Part shown: in pieces, positions 16,698 to 23,053 of the stretch
Layout of the letters: each line of letters opens with the position of its first letter
How positions within the stretch are numbered: the first letter of the stretch is position 1
Assembly (NCBI GenBank): GCA_018606725.1
Contig: JAGYID010000017.1
Span: 1-37,566 of the forward strand
DNA: 37,566 nucleotides
Origin: Acidobacteriota bacterium
Lineage (GTDB): Bacteria > Acidobacteriota > Polarisedimenticolia > Gp22-AA2
Direction: 5' to 3'
The notes under the pieces: generated by a model
Seen by the model: only the letters and a program-made list of their open reading frames with translations
Databases searched by the model: none
What the model was told of the DNA's origin: nothing
Program-made: the position numbers and the translations under genes

Positions 16698-18179
16698 ATG
16701 GCAGTCCGCAAGCTGCGCAATTACGTACGCGGAGAGTGGTACGAGCCGCGGGGCGCGCGCTTCATCGACGTCGAGAACCCGTCGACCGGCGAGGCGATCG
16801 CCCAGGTCCCGCTGTCGACCGCGGAGGACACCAACGTCGCCATCGCGGCGGCCCACGCGGCGTTCCCCGGCTGGGCCGCGACGCCGGTCGACAAGCGGGT
16901 GGCGCCGCTGTTCAGGCTGGCGGGAATGATCCGGCAGAACCACGAGACGCTCGCCCGCAGCATCACCGAGGAGATGGGCAAATCGCTCCCCGACGCCCGC
17001 GCCGAAATCGACCGCACGCTGGAAAACGTCGAGACCGCCTGCGGCATGCCGGTCCTGCAGCAGGGCGACAAGCTGGTCGGCGCGGCCCCCGGCATCGACG
17101 GCGAAGTGATCCGCCTGCCGATGGGCGTGTTCACCATGATCGCGCCGTTCAACTTCCCCGGCATGGTGCCGTTCTGGTTCATCCCCTACGCGCTTGCCAC
17201 CGGCAACACCTACGTCGTGAAGCCGTCCAAGCAGGTCCCCTGCACCATGCAGCTGCTCGCCACGTACATCGACGCCAGCGGCTTCCCGAAGGGGGTCTTC
17301 AACCTGGTCAATGGCGACCGGGTGGTGGCCGACGCCTTCATGGCCCACCCCGACGTGCAGGGCGTCTCGGTCGTCGGCTCGACGCCGACGGCGCGCGTCA
17401 TCGCCGAGACCTGCGCCCGGAACAACAAGCGCTTCCAGGCGATGGGCGGCGCCAAGAACCACCTGGTGGTCATGCCCGACGCCAAGATGGACGACGTCGT
17501 CCGTAACATGATCACCTCCGGCTACGGCTGCGCCGGCCAGCGCTGCATGGCCTCGTCCGCGATCGTCTGCGTCGGAGATGCCGTCTACAAGGACGTCAGC
17601 GCCCGCTTCGTCGAGGCATCCAGGAAGGTGATCGTCGCCAACCCGCTCGACCCGAAGGTGGCGAACGAGTCGATGGTCATGGGACCGGTGATTTCGTCCC
17701 AGGCGAAGGACTTCATCTTGAAGATGATCGACGCGGGCGTGAAGGAAGGGGCGACCCTGGCCCTCGACGGCCGCGGCGTCAAGGTGCCCGGCTGCGACAA
17801 GGGGCACTTCATCGGCACGACGGTGTTCACCAACGTCAAGCCGGGGATGCAGATCCACAAGACCGAGATCTTCGGGCCGGTGCAGGTGATCCTGAAGGCC
17901 GCCACGCTGGACGAGGCGATCAAGATCGTCAACGAGCACGAGTACGGCAACGGCGCGTCGATCTACACCCAGAACGGCTACTACGCGCGCAAGTTCAAGA
18001 TCGAGGCGCGGGTCGGCATGGTCGGCATCAACGTCGGCATCCCCGCCCCGGTCGCCTACCTGCCGTTCGGCGGCATGAAGTCGTCGCAGTTCGCCGACAT
18101 CAAGGCGCAGGGCAAGGCGGTCGTCAACTTCTTCACCCAGGACAAGATCGTCACCGAGCGCTACTGGCCGGAGGCCTGA
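16698..18179 (+). CDS. mmsA: CoA-acylating methylmalonate-semialdehyde dehydrogenase
   Basis: A 493-residue aldehyde dehydrogenase of the MmsA type, which oxidatively decarboxylates methylmalonate (or malonate) semialdehyde to propionyl- or acetyl-CoA in valine and inositol breakdown. The catalytic Cys283 lies in GYGCAGQRCMASS. The position of the general-base Glu of ordinary aldehyde dehydrogenases is replaced by Asn254 in MGGAKNHLVVMPDAKMD, a hallmark of the CoA-dependent group. IAPFNFPGMVPFWFIPYAL and VGSTPTARVI are also family blocks. A perfect GGAGGT sits at 16688-16693, four bases before the ATG. It is 20 bp downstream of rocD and 25 bp upstream of the selenoprotein peroxiredoxin, so all three may share one transcript. 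The enzyme assignment is strong; pathway partners are not in the window. Confidence 0.92.
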   Translation: MAVRKLRNYVRGEWYEPRGARFIDVENPSTGEAIAQVPLSTAEDTNVAIAAAHAAFPGWAATPVDKRVAPLFRLAGMIRQNHETLARSITEEMGKSLPDARAEIDRTLENVETACGMPVLQQGDKLVGAAPGIDGEVIRLPMGVFTMIAPFNFPGMVPFWFIPYALATGNTYVVKPSKQVPCTMQLLATYIDASGFPKGVFNLVNGDRVVADAFMAHPDVQGVSVVGSTPTARVIAETCARNNKRFQAMGGAKNHLVVMPDAKMDDVVRNMITSGYGCAGQRCMASSAIVCVGDAVYKDVSARFVEASRKVIVANPLDPKVANESMVMGPVISSQAKDFILKMIDAGVKEGATLALDGRGVKVPGCDKGHFIGTTVFTNVKPGMQIHKTEIFGPVQVILKAATLDEAIKIVNEHEYGNGASIYTQNGYYARKFKIEARVGMVGINVGIPAPVAYLPFGGMKSSQFADIKAQGKAVVNFFTQDKIVTERYWPEA

Positions 18180-18204
18180 AACGACCGAGCGGAGGGACCA
18201 CACC

Positions 18205-18822
18205 ATGTCGGAACCGGCGAGCGGGCTGAAGCTGGGACAGAACGTCCCCGACTTCGAGCTCGAGACCTACGATCCCGTCAAGGACGACTTCGGCAAGTTC
18301 CGCCTGCAGGACCAGATCGCCGGCAAGCGCTGGACGGTCCTGTTCTTCTACCCCGCCGACTTCACCTTCGTCTGAGCGACCGAGTTCGCTGCTCTGGCAG
18401 AGCAGCACGAGCGGTTCGTGAAGATGGGGTGCGACATCATCACCATCAGCGCCGACACCAAGTTCGTGCACCTGGCGTGGCGCAAGAACGAGAAGGAGCT
18501 GGCGGCGGTGCGCTATCCGATGGCCTCCGACCCGACCGGCAAGGTCGGCCGGATGTTCGGGGTCTACGACGACAACACCGGGCTGAACCTGCGCGGCACG
18601 TTCGTCATCAACCCCGAGGGGAAGCTCCTGAACGCCGAGGTGAACTTCTACAACCTCGGCCGCAACATCGACGAGCTGATGCGGAAGTTCAAGGCCAACC
18701 TCTACATGACCAAGAAGACCAACGAAGCCTGCCCCTCGAAGTGGAAGGACGAGGGCGACAAGACCCTGGTCAACCCGGGCGCGAAGATGGTCGGCAAGGT
18801 CCACGAGGCGCTGAACCCGTAA
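18205..18822 (+). CDS. selenocysteine-containing peroxiredoxin (AhpC/2-Cys type), UGA at codon 57
   Basis: A 205-residue peroxiredoxin that would reduce hydrogen peroxide and organic hydroperoxides. The frame opens at ATG 18205 after GGAGGG and reads through TGA at 18373-18375 to TAA at 18822. The TGA falls exactly on the peroxidatic residue: FFYPADFTFV-U-ATEF replaces the family's FYPxDFTFVCPTE. After it, similarity continues unbroken: TISADTKFVHLAWRK, the Arg-containing SDPTGKVGRMFGVYD, GTFVINPEG, and a C-terminal resolving Cys176 in ACPSKW. A hairpin right after the TGA looks like a bacterial SECIS. The Pro after the peroxidatic residue is Ala here, a small departure. Selenocysteine would need SelA/B/C/D, which are not in this window. 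A sequencing error or nonsense mutation is the alternative, made unlikely by the hairpin. Ordinary gene calling would report only 18418-18822. Confidence 0.88.
18373..18406 (+). promoter_or_regulatory. putative bacterial SECIS element following the UGA codon
   Basis: Starting 12 nt after the TGA, the arms GCTGCTCT (18388-18395) and AGAGCAGC (18399-18406) pair perfectly over 8 bp around a GGC loop. The loop begins 20 nt after the TGA. Bacterial SECIS elements lie just downstream of the UGA inside the coding region, have a short stem and a small loop with G in its first positions, and bind SelB; this fits. The hairpin is coding (AALAEQ). Recognition by SelB is inferred. Confidence 0.75.
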
Positions 18823-19635: not shown

Positions 19636-22551
19636 TCACCCGTCGGGCGAGGATGCCAGTCGCTTGCGAGCCTCGATCAACTCGGGGATGTCGGGGTCGG
19701 CGTCTTTCCAGTCGGTGACGAATTGCCCGTACCATTGACGGGCGCGGTCGGCCTGGCCCGCCCGCTCGCAGGCGCGCGCGGCGCTGTACTGGTCGAGCGA
19801 CCCGAAGACCGACAGGACGAGATATCGCCTGCGGAAGGGGTATTTCAAGACTTCCTCGTAGGCGCCCGCCGCCTCCGGCCACATTCCGAGCGCTTCGTAG
19901 GTTCGCGCCAGCACGTGGTGGCGCCGCAGAAGGATCGAGTTGTAGGCCAGTTTTTCGAGCGCCGGCAGCGCCTCGGCCGGCCTGCCACGCACCAGCCGGA
20001 GGCAGGCGCGGGCGAACTCCAGCTCCTCCGTTGCGAAGCGGCTGTCGAGATCCTTGAGGGCGATCTCCTGCTCGCGCACCATAGCGGCCAGCGGTTCCTC
20101 CTGGCCGGTCTCGACGGCCATGACCGCCATCGCCGGGAGATAGACGATATTGCGGTCGAGCGGGGCGATCTGGTCGCGATCGAGCCGGACCGGCTTGCCG
20201 GAGGTGCGCCCGTCGACCCACGCGCGGGCGAGCGCGCTCCACCCGCGCATATCCACCTTCTTGATCTCCGCGGCGGAGCGCCAGGCGGCGATGACCGCCT
20301 CCCGCCCTTCCTTGAACCGCCCGGCGCCGAGCAGGCCATCGGCGTAGGTCACTGCCATGACGGACACGATTCCCGTTCCCTCCCTGCCGTACGTTTCGGT
20401 CAGCGCCCGGGCCTTCGTCCAGTCGCGCCGGAGGACGTGGGCCCACATCCTGGAAGGCTCCACCTGTTGCGGCAGCCTGCCCGCCTTCAACGCCTCGTCG
20501 ACGATCCAGTCGATTTCCCGGGTGTTCCCCTGTTTTTCGAATGCATCGACGCAATTCCCGAGGGCGAGCAGGGTCGGCACGATGTTGTACTCAGCGCGAT
20601 AGAGGGCTTCGGCGCCGACCGGATCCTCGAGCAAGTTGAGGTAGATCCAACCCAGCCAGTCTGGATAGCGGACATCGTGGGGATACATCGCCATCTGGGA
20701 CTTCAGGCGCTCGATTTCGATGTCGGTCTGCAACGTGGCATCGAGGTGGTTGATCTCCGCCCACGTCCGCTTCATGGGCGACTGACCAGTGGAGCGACGA
20801 TGCGCCTCTGCGGCGTTTTTGCGATATCCATCCCAATCACCCAAATTGGCCAGGGTGACGCCGAGGTCGATGTAAGCGTCCACGAAATCGGGGTCGATGT
20901 CGATCGCCTTCTTATAGAGCCCGACGGACGCCTCGTTTCCGGAAGCCCTTTCGGCCGCGGCCACAGCCTGCAGGGCGGCGAGCGAGCGGGTGGCTGGCGG
21001 TTCCGTCGAGCCGATCGCCTGCAGGCTCTCACCGGTCCTGCGCCGCACGGCGTTCGCGATGCTCCAGATCGTCCCGACGATCGCGTCCTCGCCCGCCGCC
21101 AGCGCGGATTCCGTGACCACCGCTCGCTCCTCGCCGCGGCGGTGCAGGCCGACTTGGATCCGGTAGGCGGACCCTTCCCGGACGATCTTGCCGCTGACGA
21201 AGCCTCCGCAGTGTACCTGGCACAGACTGGCAGCGGCCTTCGCGTCGATCCGGGTCGCCGTTCGAAGGCCCGCCGCCTTCGTCAGATCGGCCAAATCGTC
21301 TCCGGTCACCACCCACAGGTAGGTCGAGAAGTTGAGCATCCATTCGAACGCGTCCCTGATTGCCGTGTCGAATTGAGATTGCCCCGTGGCGTTCTCGAAG
21401 TCGGCGACGACGATGCGGCTGCCGACCGGGAAGGCGGTCGCCGGCCGGCTCGCGACCCAATGACGGACGGCGAAGATCGCCAGCAGGGCCGCCGCGCCGG
21501 CCGCGGCGCCCATCCAGGCGATCCGCGACCGGCCAGACGGTCGCGACCAGCCTGACAGCCGGCGGCCGGACCGCGGCACGCCCACCGCCACCGGCCCGCC
21601 CGGGGTCCGGACTACCTGTACGTCCGAGTCGGTCGCCCGCTTCAGGCGGCGCAAATCAGTCACCATGTCGTCGGCGTGGTGATAGCGATCCTGCGGGTCC
21701 TTTTCCAGCGCCTTGGCGATGATCCGTTCCAGCTCAGGCTGCGGCTCGCCGGTCACGCTGCCGGGAGGCGGCGCCTCCTCCTTCAGGATCGAGGCCAGCG
21801 TCTCCGCGTCGGTCTTCCCCTTGAACGGCTGCCGCCCGGTCGCCATCTCGTACAGCACCACCCCGAACGAGAACAGGTCCGAGTGGTGCGTCACCCGCTC
21901 TCCGCGCGCCTGCTCCGGGCTCATGTAGGCGACGGTGCCGAATACCTTCCCCTGCATCGTCAGCTCGCGCGAGATCGTGTCCATGCGCGAGTGCAGGTCC
22001 TCCCCGGCTGCACCGCCGGCCCGGGTGTCCGCCGTGTCGCCCACGCCGGTCGAGCCGCCCGCCCCTTCCGGCTCCAGCAGCTTCGCCAGCCCGAAGTCGA
22101 GGACCTTTGCCGTCCCCTGCCGCGTGACGAAGATGTTGTCCGGCTTCAGGTCGCGGTGCAGGACGCCGTGCTCGTGCGCCGCCTGCAGCGCCTCGCCGAT
22201 CTGCATGGCCACCGGCAGCAGCGTCTTGAGCGGCAGCGGCCGGTGGCCGATCCGCTCCCGCAGCGTCTGCCCCTCGAGGAGCTCCATCACCAGGAAGTCG
22301 CTCCCGTCGTGCTCTTCGACGGCGTGGATGGTGCAGATGTTCGGGTGATTCAGCGCCGCCGCGGCCTGCGCCTCTCTCCTGAACCGCAGGCGGCGCTCGT
22401 CGCTGCCGACCAGGTCCGGCGGCAGGACCTTGATTGCCACGGGGCGGTTCAGCCGGGTGTCGAGGGCGCGATAGACGACGCCCATGCCCCCCTCGCCGAG
22501 GCGGGAAACCACCTCGTAGTGGCCGACGCGCGATCCCGGAGCGAGGTTCAT
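19636..22551 (-). CDS. membrane Ser/Thr protein kinase with C-terminal helical-repeat region
   Basis: A 971-residue Hanks-type kinase. Residues 12-290 form the kinase domain: Gly-rich loop LGEGGMGVVYRA, Lys41 in VAIK, catalytic HRDLKPDN with Asp134, DFGLAKL, and GTVAYMSPEQARGE. A Ser/Gly/Arg linker leads to one transmembrane helix (WMGAAAGAAALLAIFAV, around residue 355). The periplasmic part begins with a VVADFEN...FDTAIRDAFEWML segment that looks like an adenylate-cyclase-associated/TolB-like domain, followed by TPR-like helices (ALQAVAAAERASGNEASVGLYKKAIDIDPDFVDAYIDLGVTLANLGDWDGY and later repeats). The ATG at 22551 was chosen because kinase homology starts there; no Shine-Dalgarno is evident. 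This architecture is abundant in Acidobacteriota. Substrates and signal are unknown; no partner gene lies next to it. Confidence 0.9.
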   Translation of the reverse strand: MNLAPGSRVGHYEVVSRLGEGGMGVVYRALDTRLNRPVAIKVLPPDLVGSDERRLRFRREAQAAAALNHPNICTIHAVEEHDGSDFLVMELLEGQTLRERIGHRPLPLKTLLPVAMQIGEALQAAHEHGVLHRDLKPDNIFVTRQGTAKVLDFGLAKLLEPEGAGGSTGVGDTADTRAGGAAGEDLHSRMDTISRELTMQGKVFGTVAYMSPEQARGERVTHHSDLFSFGVVLYEMATGRQPFKGKTDAETLASILKEEAPPPGSVTGEPQPELERIIAKALEKDPQDRYHHADDMVTDLRRLKRATDSDVQVVRTPGGPVAVGVPRSGRRLSGWSRPSGRSRIAWMGAAAGAAALLAIFAVRHWVASRPATAFPVGSRIVVADFENATGQSQFDTAIRDAFEWMLNFSTYLWVVTGDDLADLTKAAGLRTATRIDAKAAASLCQVHCGGFVSGKIVREGSAYRIQVGLHRRGEERAVVTESALAAGEDAIVGTIWSIANAVRRRTGESLQAIGSTEPPATRSLAALQAVAAAERASGNEASVGLYKKAIDIDPDFVDAYIDLGVTLANLGDWDGYRKNAAEAHRRSTGQSPMKRTWAEINHLDATLQTDIEIERLKSQMAMYPHDVRYPDWLGWIYLNLLEDPVGAEALYRAEYNIVPTLLALGNCVDAFEKQGNTREIDWIVDEALKAGRLPQQVEPSRMWAHVLRRDWTKARALTETYGREGTGIVSVMAVTYADGLLGAGRFKEGREAVIAAWRSAAEIKKVDMRGWSALARAWVDGRTSGKPVRLDRDQIAPLDRNIVYLPAMAVMAVETGQEEPLAAMVREQEIALKDLDSRFATEELEFARACLRLVRGRPAEALPALEKLAYNSILLRRHHVLARTYEALGMWPEAAGAYEEVLKYPFRRRYLVLSVFGSLDQYSAARACERAGQADRARQWYGQFVTDWKDADPDIPELIEARKRLASSPDG

Positions 22552-23053
22552 ACGACTGTGCGCCGCACGATTCCCCCCGTTCGTGACGCTCGCGGGCCCG
22601 GGATCCGTGGTGACGATCGCCGGCGAATACCGGCCGCGCGCGCTTTCTGAACTTGACCGGAAGGTCCGTCCCACCGGGCCAGGGACAACAAGTGGAGCGA
22701 TTCTAACCCAATTGCCCTCGGCGGGGCTGCCCGCGGCCACACCGGCGGCGAATCCAGCGGCCGGGCGCCGCATCCCAAGACCGGGTGCGGTTGCTGGGCG
22801 GTCAACGGAGATCGCCGGCCAGCGCCCGGAGGCGGCGTCCGATGACCCACATCGTGCTGTACGACCTGGAATGCTGCGGCGCTCCGGTGGCCGCGGCGGC
22901 GACGACGACCTGCAGCGCCAGATCCTCGAGCACGCCTGCGCCGGACCGCTTGAAGCTCCCGACCCCGGCGACGAACTGGACCGCCGCGCTGCCCGCCTGC
23001 GAATTCGCGATTACGCCTGGGAGATGTGACGCGCCGGACCGGCGAAGGCGCTC
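22552..23053. other. 502-bp gap between kinase and acyl-CoA dehydrogenase genes
   Basis: No recognised gene lies here. The kinase promoter must be within it or close to it. Codon use and composition do not clearly favour any frame except the short plus-strand frame 22871-23029 listed separately. I found no tRNA-like fold or strong terminator. Confidence 0.5.
22871..23029 (+). CDS. possible small acidic protein, unrecognised
   Basis: A 52-residue frame from ATG to TGA on the plus strand, opposite in direction to its neighbours. It has a Gly/Arg-rich start and a well-mixed, charged, helix-like body (DDDLQRQILEHACAGP, then DELDRRAARLRIRDYAWEM). Third positions are mostly G/C, as in real genes here. 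It lacks a Shine-Dalgarno and any family I recognise, and an overlapping +1 frame is also open, so it may be chance. Listed as a weak candidate only. Confidence 0.22.
   Translation: MLRRSGGRGGDDDLQRQILEHACAGPLEAPDPGDELDRRAARLRIRDYAWEM

Follow-up and report, generated by a model that had tools for sequence, protein, structure and literature searches.

Selenocysteine (Sec)-containing peroxiredoxins with a TxxU motif are a described group, of which PrxU from Eubacterium acidaminophilum was the first, and further Prx-like selenoproteins of COG0450 have been found in the Sargasso Sea (PMC1088965). The RNA element associated with such genes in bacteria is captured by the bacterial SECIS (bSECIS) consensus of Zhang and Gladyshev, reviewed in PMC13188914. 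According to this model, the loop comprises 3–9 nt and lies 16–37 nt from the UGA, the stem comprises 4–16 bp, and the minimum free energy (MFE) is −7.5 kcal/mol or lower; G is found in the first two positions of the loop, usually in the arrangement N1-G-[G/U]-N-N2, in which N1 and N2 are paired (PMC13188914).

How does the present locus compare with these systems? In the stretch of 37,566 nt analyzed here (referred to as the window), a hairpin lies directly 3′ of an in-frame TGA codon, and we consider it almost certain that this hairpin is a canonical bSECIS element that directs Sec, by way of predicted SelB binding and UGA decoding, to U57 of an AhpC/Prx1 peroxiredoxin. Sec peroxiredoxins being a long-known selenoprotein family, the hairpin adds a new, very strongly supported case to a type already known. 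The features of the locus are collected in Table 1.

Table 1. Coordinates in the window of the peroxiredoxin gene and of the elements associated with its TGA codon
Feature	Position	Strand	Basis
GGAGGG, putative ribosome-binding site, 8 nt 5′ of the ATG	18191..18196	+	sequence reading
Sec-containing AhpC/Prx1-type peroxiredoxin gene, 205 aa, TGA predicted to be read through at codon 57	18205..18822	+	translation, Pfam, PDB, relatives
In-frame TGA that takes the place of the peroxidatic Cys codon, predicted to encode Sec (U57; PADFTFVU)	18373..18375	+	aligned with the AhpC peroxidatic Cys; TGC/TGT in Cys relatives
Spacer of 12 nt between UGA and SECIS stem, encoding ATEF	18376..18387	+	same length in all 101 clade-1 TGA loci
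SECIS hairpin, 8-bp stem 18388-18395 (GCTGCTCT) / 18399-18406 (AGAGCAGC), GGC loop 18396-18398	18388..18406	+	sequence reading of the arms; folding, homologues, covariation
Cys176 codon, probable resolving cysteine (EACPSKWK)	18730..18732	+	aligned with the AhpC CP.KWK cysteine

The gene matches the Pfam family AhpC-TSA (PF00578) with an E value of 3.3e-36 and 124.4 bits, against a gathering score of 26, its closest solved structures in the PDB are AhpC, and relatives that are 86–88% identical carry the same TGA. The TGA falls exactly at the peroxidatic cysteine (PADFTFV-U-ATEF), with conserved protein sequence on either side, and both the PxxxTxxC/U peroxidatic motif and the C-terminal resolving cysteine of PF00578 proteins are present, the latter (Cys176) being conserved in 96 of 99 Sec homologues and in all 48 Cys homologues. 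The protein therefore resembles the known Sec peroxiredoxins and COG0450 selenoproteins in its PF00578 fold, in the PxxxTxxU motif and in the placement of Sec at the peroxidatic position. In contrast, it is unlike the members of the PrxU and AhpC equivalogs, scoring far below the curated cut-offs of both (179.5 bits against 270 for NF040737, PrxU; 174.7 bits against 272 for TIGR03137, AhpC) and having UATEF in place of CPTEL. Because it stays under both equivalog cut-offs, we regard it as belonging to an AhpC-like clade of its own within the family. Elsewhere in the window, a 1045-aa ORF on the minus strand (19636-22773) encodes what looks like a serine/threonine protein kinase, whose long C-terminal part is repeat-like.

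The preliminary description of this DNA had reported a perfect 8-bp stem with a GGC loop that begins 12 nt past the TGA, the loop itself starting 20 nt from it, and rereading the sequence reproduced these values exactly. The apex can alternatively be written U-GGC-A, with a closing U:A pair, and in this form it matches N1-G-G-N-N2 letter for letter. All 8 pairs are present in the MFE fold of the 58 nt from 18368 to 18425, at −26.7 kcal/mol compared with −19.4 ± 3.0 kcal/mol for shuffled sequences (z = −2.47), and the isolated hairpin folds at −11.7 kcal/mol. A more stable alternative fold, named in the preliminary description as evidence that would count against the hairpin, was sought by MFE folding of these 58 nt, and none was found. 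Perfect hairpins of 8 bp with a 3-nt loop occur at four sites in the 37.6-kb window, so the shape by itself is not unique. The alanine codons within the hairpin are GCT, GCT and GCA, whereas the rest of the gene encodes alanine by GCC and GCG only. An Rfam scan of the window matched no family, which is uninformative because no general bSECIS family responded.

The hairpin agrees with the bSECIS model at every point, with its location within the coding region, a 3-nt loop, 8 bp, a distance of 20 nt and an MFE of −11.7 kcal/mol. The likeness lies in the position directly 3′ of the UGA, the 8-bp stem and the loop that begins with G followed by G, so that the SECIS-type placement and initial G noted earlier fit the published model; the differences are that the loop is at the lower limit of the permitted range and that the nucleotide sequence of the hairpin is unusually fixed across phyla. 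Since the model allows loops of 3–9 nt, the earlier suggestion that the 3-nt loop is a variant suited to the SelB of this lineage is unnecessary.

Direct evolutionary evidence comes from relatives that encode the same protein with either TGA or a cysteine codon. We collected approximately 260 homologues and read the codon at position 57 in each; those with at least 48% identity to the query constitute the clade-1 comparison set, in which 101 genes have TGA and 48 have TGC or TGT. Every one of the 101 TGA genes forms either all 8 pairs or 7 of them, with unchanged spacing, and none of the 48 Cys genes exceeds 6 pairs; after the removal of identical proteins, at least 7 of the 8 pairs are present in 96 of 96 TGA genes and in 0 of 47 Cys genes. 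The loop of the TGA genes is GGC in 100 cases and GGG in one, the closing pair is U-A in 99 and U-G in two, and an A.C mismatch occurs at pair 5 in seven homologues (five distinct sequences). The comparison with related genomes proposed in the preliminary description thus turned out in favor of the hairpin: TGA relatives keep the stem with compensatory changes and Cys relatives lose it, and TGA relatives that conserve the protein but not the hairpin, which had been named as counter-evidence, do not occur among the 96. The TGA genes are distributed over the phylum of the query itself, Nitrospirota, Planctomycetota and a Rokubacteria bin, and the earlier notion of a lineage-specific element must accordingly give way to one that spans at least four phyla. 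In one of these genomes (G405, CP070644.1, a single-chromosome bin), the TGA and the hairpin are present in locus L053, and neither selB nor tRNA-Sec was detected when both were looked for; in genome G721, selB was not detected. The assemblies of G405 and G721 are probably incomplete.

Covariation was examined in 85 distinct sequences. Changes on both sides were found at four of the eight pairs, with UA, CG, GU and AU at pair 3, CG and AU at pair 5, UA and CG at pair 6, and CG and AU at pair 2. There were 33 double-change cells compared with 4.1 after shuffling, and the covariation score was 0.232 compared with 0.114, a value that none of 500 shuffles reached. Double-change counts are inflated by relatedness, and the reliable controls are therefore the Cys genes and the alignments in which the partner was slid by one to three columns; sliding destroyed the covariation signal, all slid controls scoring far lower. 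RNAalifold independently recovered the same structure. The structure is kept by compensatory change in the Sec genes and is dispensable in the Cys genes.

The hairpin also leaves its mark on the protein. In the Sec genes, synonymous codon entropy is near zero at codons 63–67, the five lowest values of the gene, compared with a mean of 0.87 elsewhere; in the Cys genes, it is ordinary at the codons where it can be measured (64 and 65). Residues 63 and 66 are coupled in the Sec genes because codon 63 pairs with codon 66 in the stem: the combinations A/E (85 genes), D/G (9) and D/D (7) account for all 101, whereas the 48 Cys genes have D/E (13), A/D (5) and others as well. Such a pattern is predicted when RNA pairing limits the residues allowed at positions 63 and 66. 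A separate observation concerns the residue that follows codon 57 (18376-18378 in the window), which is alanine, giving UGA followed by G, in all 101 clade-1 Sec genes, whereas proline follows the peroxidatic cysteine in 32 of the 48 Cys relatives. This difference could possibly reflect a 3′ context effect on UGA decoding.

Could the hairpin have arisen for reasons other than Sec insertion? If it were a by-product of encoding the peptide AALAEQ with ordinary codons, its conservation would be due to the protein only, and it is true that some Cys homologues encode the same AALAEQ and that GGC stands at the loop position in 20 of the 48. However, the stem is lost in Cys homologues that encode this peptide, as in L186, which reads GCAGCACT TGC AGAACAGT and retains 5 of 8 pairs. 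Moreover, the double compensatory changes include amino-acid changes, and codon entropy approaches zero only at the hairpin. When the protein was fixed and codons were redrawn from local usage, 8 pairs arose at this site with P ~5e-5; a hairpin of 8 bp or more anywhere within 39 nt past the TGA was just as rare (P ~5e-5). A chance origin was likewise considered and rejected. With the Cys control lacking the stem, we rejected the coding explanation as highly improbable. Much the same low probability attaches to a transcription attenuator, a terminator or another regulatory structure that is not a SECIS. Such a role is conceivable for any stable stem-loop within an mRNA, but a T-run is absent, the presence of the hairpin follows the TGA or Cys state without exception, and the placement fits the bSECIS window, and on these three grounds we set this reading aside.

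Two further explanations concern the TGA itself, and we consider both still more improbable than the two above. An in-frame stop in a single assembly can always be read as the mark of a pseudogene, a Cys peroxiredoxin in which a nonsense mutation or an error of sequencing has produced the stop; here, however, the same TGA occupies the same codon in 101 loci from at least four phyla, and the frames are intact on both sides, with no further stops in nearly all of them, so that the conservation of both TGA and frame led us to reject this possibility. Reassignment of UGA to another amino acid such as tryptophan, with the hairpin serving another role, has precedents in the altered codes of other bacteria. 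It was rejected because the neighboring upstream gene (16698-18179) terminates in TGA, the residue aligned with the TGA is cysteine rather than tryptophan, and the genome encodes Sec machinery (selA, selB and tRNA-Sec). The SECIS reading of the preliminary description, in contrast, gains support from the TGA-linked retention of the hairpin, the compensatory changes, the fold and these same three genes.

The genome (95% complete) contains selB (330.6 bits, over the cut-off), selA (550 bits), a tRNA-Sec with the anticodon TCA (UCA; 73.6 bits) and the 3′ half of selD, the gene being cut by a contig end; all four components of the pathway are thus represented, selD by its 3′ half only. Its SelB aligns with that of E. 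coli over the full length, including the last winged helix and the terminal motif RKxAIxxLExFDxxxxTRRxGN. The last winged helix of SelB is the SECIS-binding domain. In the mechanism that we propose, the mRNA would fold 18388-18406 into the 8-bp hairpin, presenting its GGC apex 20 nt past the UGA. SelB, loaded with GTP and Sec-tRNA-Sec (UCA anticodon), would bind this apex through its C-terminal winged-helix domain and would then deliver the Sec-tRNA when the UGA occupies the ribosomal A site, yielding selenocysteine instead of a stop. The gene would thereby encode an AhpC/Prx1 peroxiredoxin of typical 2-Cys-like type with putative peroxidase activity, in which Sec57 would be peroxidatic and Cys176 probably resolving. 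Beside the true tRNA-Sec, second matches to the tRNA-Sec family (55–58 bits) were seen in three genomes, at G583:C33:30449-30543, G603:C44:44398-44490 and G721:C37:9426-9518; these are possibly tRNA-Ser.

A second candidate selenoprotein of the query genome is an FdhA-like molybdopterin oxidoreductase (L331, G000:C3:4938-6209, minus strand) with an in-frame TGA (NRT-U-HAPSV). Its TGA is followed by an 11-nt spacer and an 8-bp stem, and this FdhA-type hairpin is identical in two genomes that belong to the same family (FdhA-like TGA genes L331, L332 and L333). The two hairpins are alike in having an 8-bp stem, a loop that starts with GG and a loop distance of 19 nt (FdhA-like) or 20 nt (peroxiredoxin), and unlike in that the FdhA-type loop consists of five nucleotides (GGUCU) and its stem sequence is unrelated. 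Probably, one SelB meets both. The phylum also contains a second Sec-AhpC clade with approximately 40% identity (L019, L022 and others), which shares the UPTE/UATE peroxiredoxin and a covarying hairpin past the UGA but differs in its 7-bp stem, its GGUC or AGUU tetraloop and a loop 17 nt past the UGA. Both Sec-AhpC types occur in genome G135 (L126 and L294), with a GGC-triloop hairpin in one gene and a GGUC-loop hairpin in the other; this genome has one selB match over the cut-off. When a covariance model of the hairpin was searched against nine genomes of the phylum, the peroxiredoxin gene was the only significant match in each, at approximately 60 bits, and the best other matches, reverse-strand echoes included, did not exceed 17.8 bits; we therefore conclude that the exact element is not shared by other genes in these nine genomes.

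How did the TGA and Cys forms come to coexist? A tree of 165 proteins places the clade-1 Sec genes in one supported group of 110, which encloses 14 Cys genes at five places (L186, L208, L233, L262 and a ten-row group around L205). The hairpin is absent from all 14, yet selB persists in 13 of the 14 genomes, and in 10 it is accompanied by tRNA-Sec. These nested genes probably arose by reversion from Sec to Cys, in genomes whose Sec decoding has been retained. The best tree requires approximately five reversions; an AU test did not reject a single clade-1 Sec clade without reversions (p = 0.093), and we therefore call the reversions only probable. An early survey listed five Cys-to-Sec events for Prx and no Sec-to-Cys event (PMC1794560).

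A hairpin spotted by eye has thus become a SECIS element with direct evolutionary proof, in a peroxiredoxin gene whose reading frame would be cut short at the TGA by ordinary annotation. A broader proposal, which we judge about equally likely to be right or wrong, is that a SECIS subtype with a tight triloop (CU-GGC-AG apex) has spread with one Sec-peroxiredoxin clade across at least four phyla; that its stem dictates which amino acids stand together at positions 63 and 66 and disappears once Sec has reverted to Cys; and that a single SelB per genome reads this loop together with the GGUCU or GGUC loops found in other selenoprotein genes. The family amounts to a natural experiment, in which the same protein is encoded with TGA or Cys and the hairpin is retained or lost, and it should be useful for measuring the strength of the constraint that an RNA element places on a protein and for learning how a single SelB accepts both 3-nt and 5-nt loops. 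The family further suggests that reversions from Sec to Cys have taken place in peroxiredoxins, where the early survey had none (PMC1794560).
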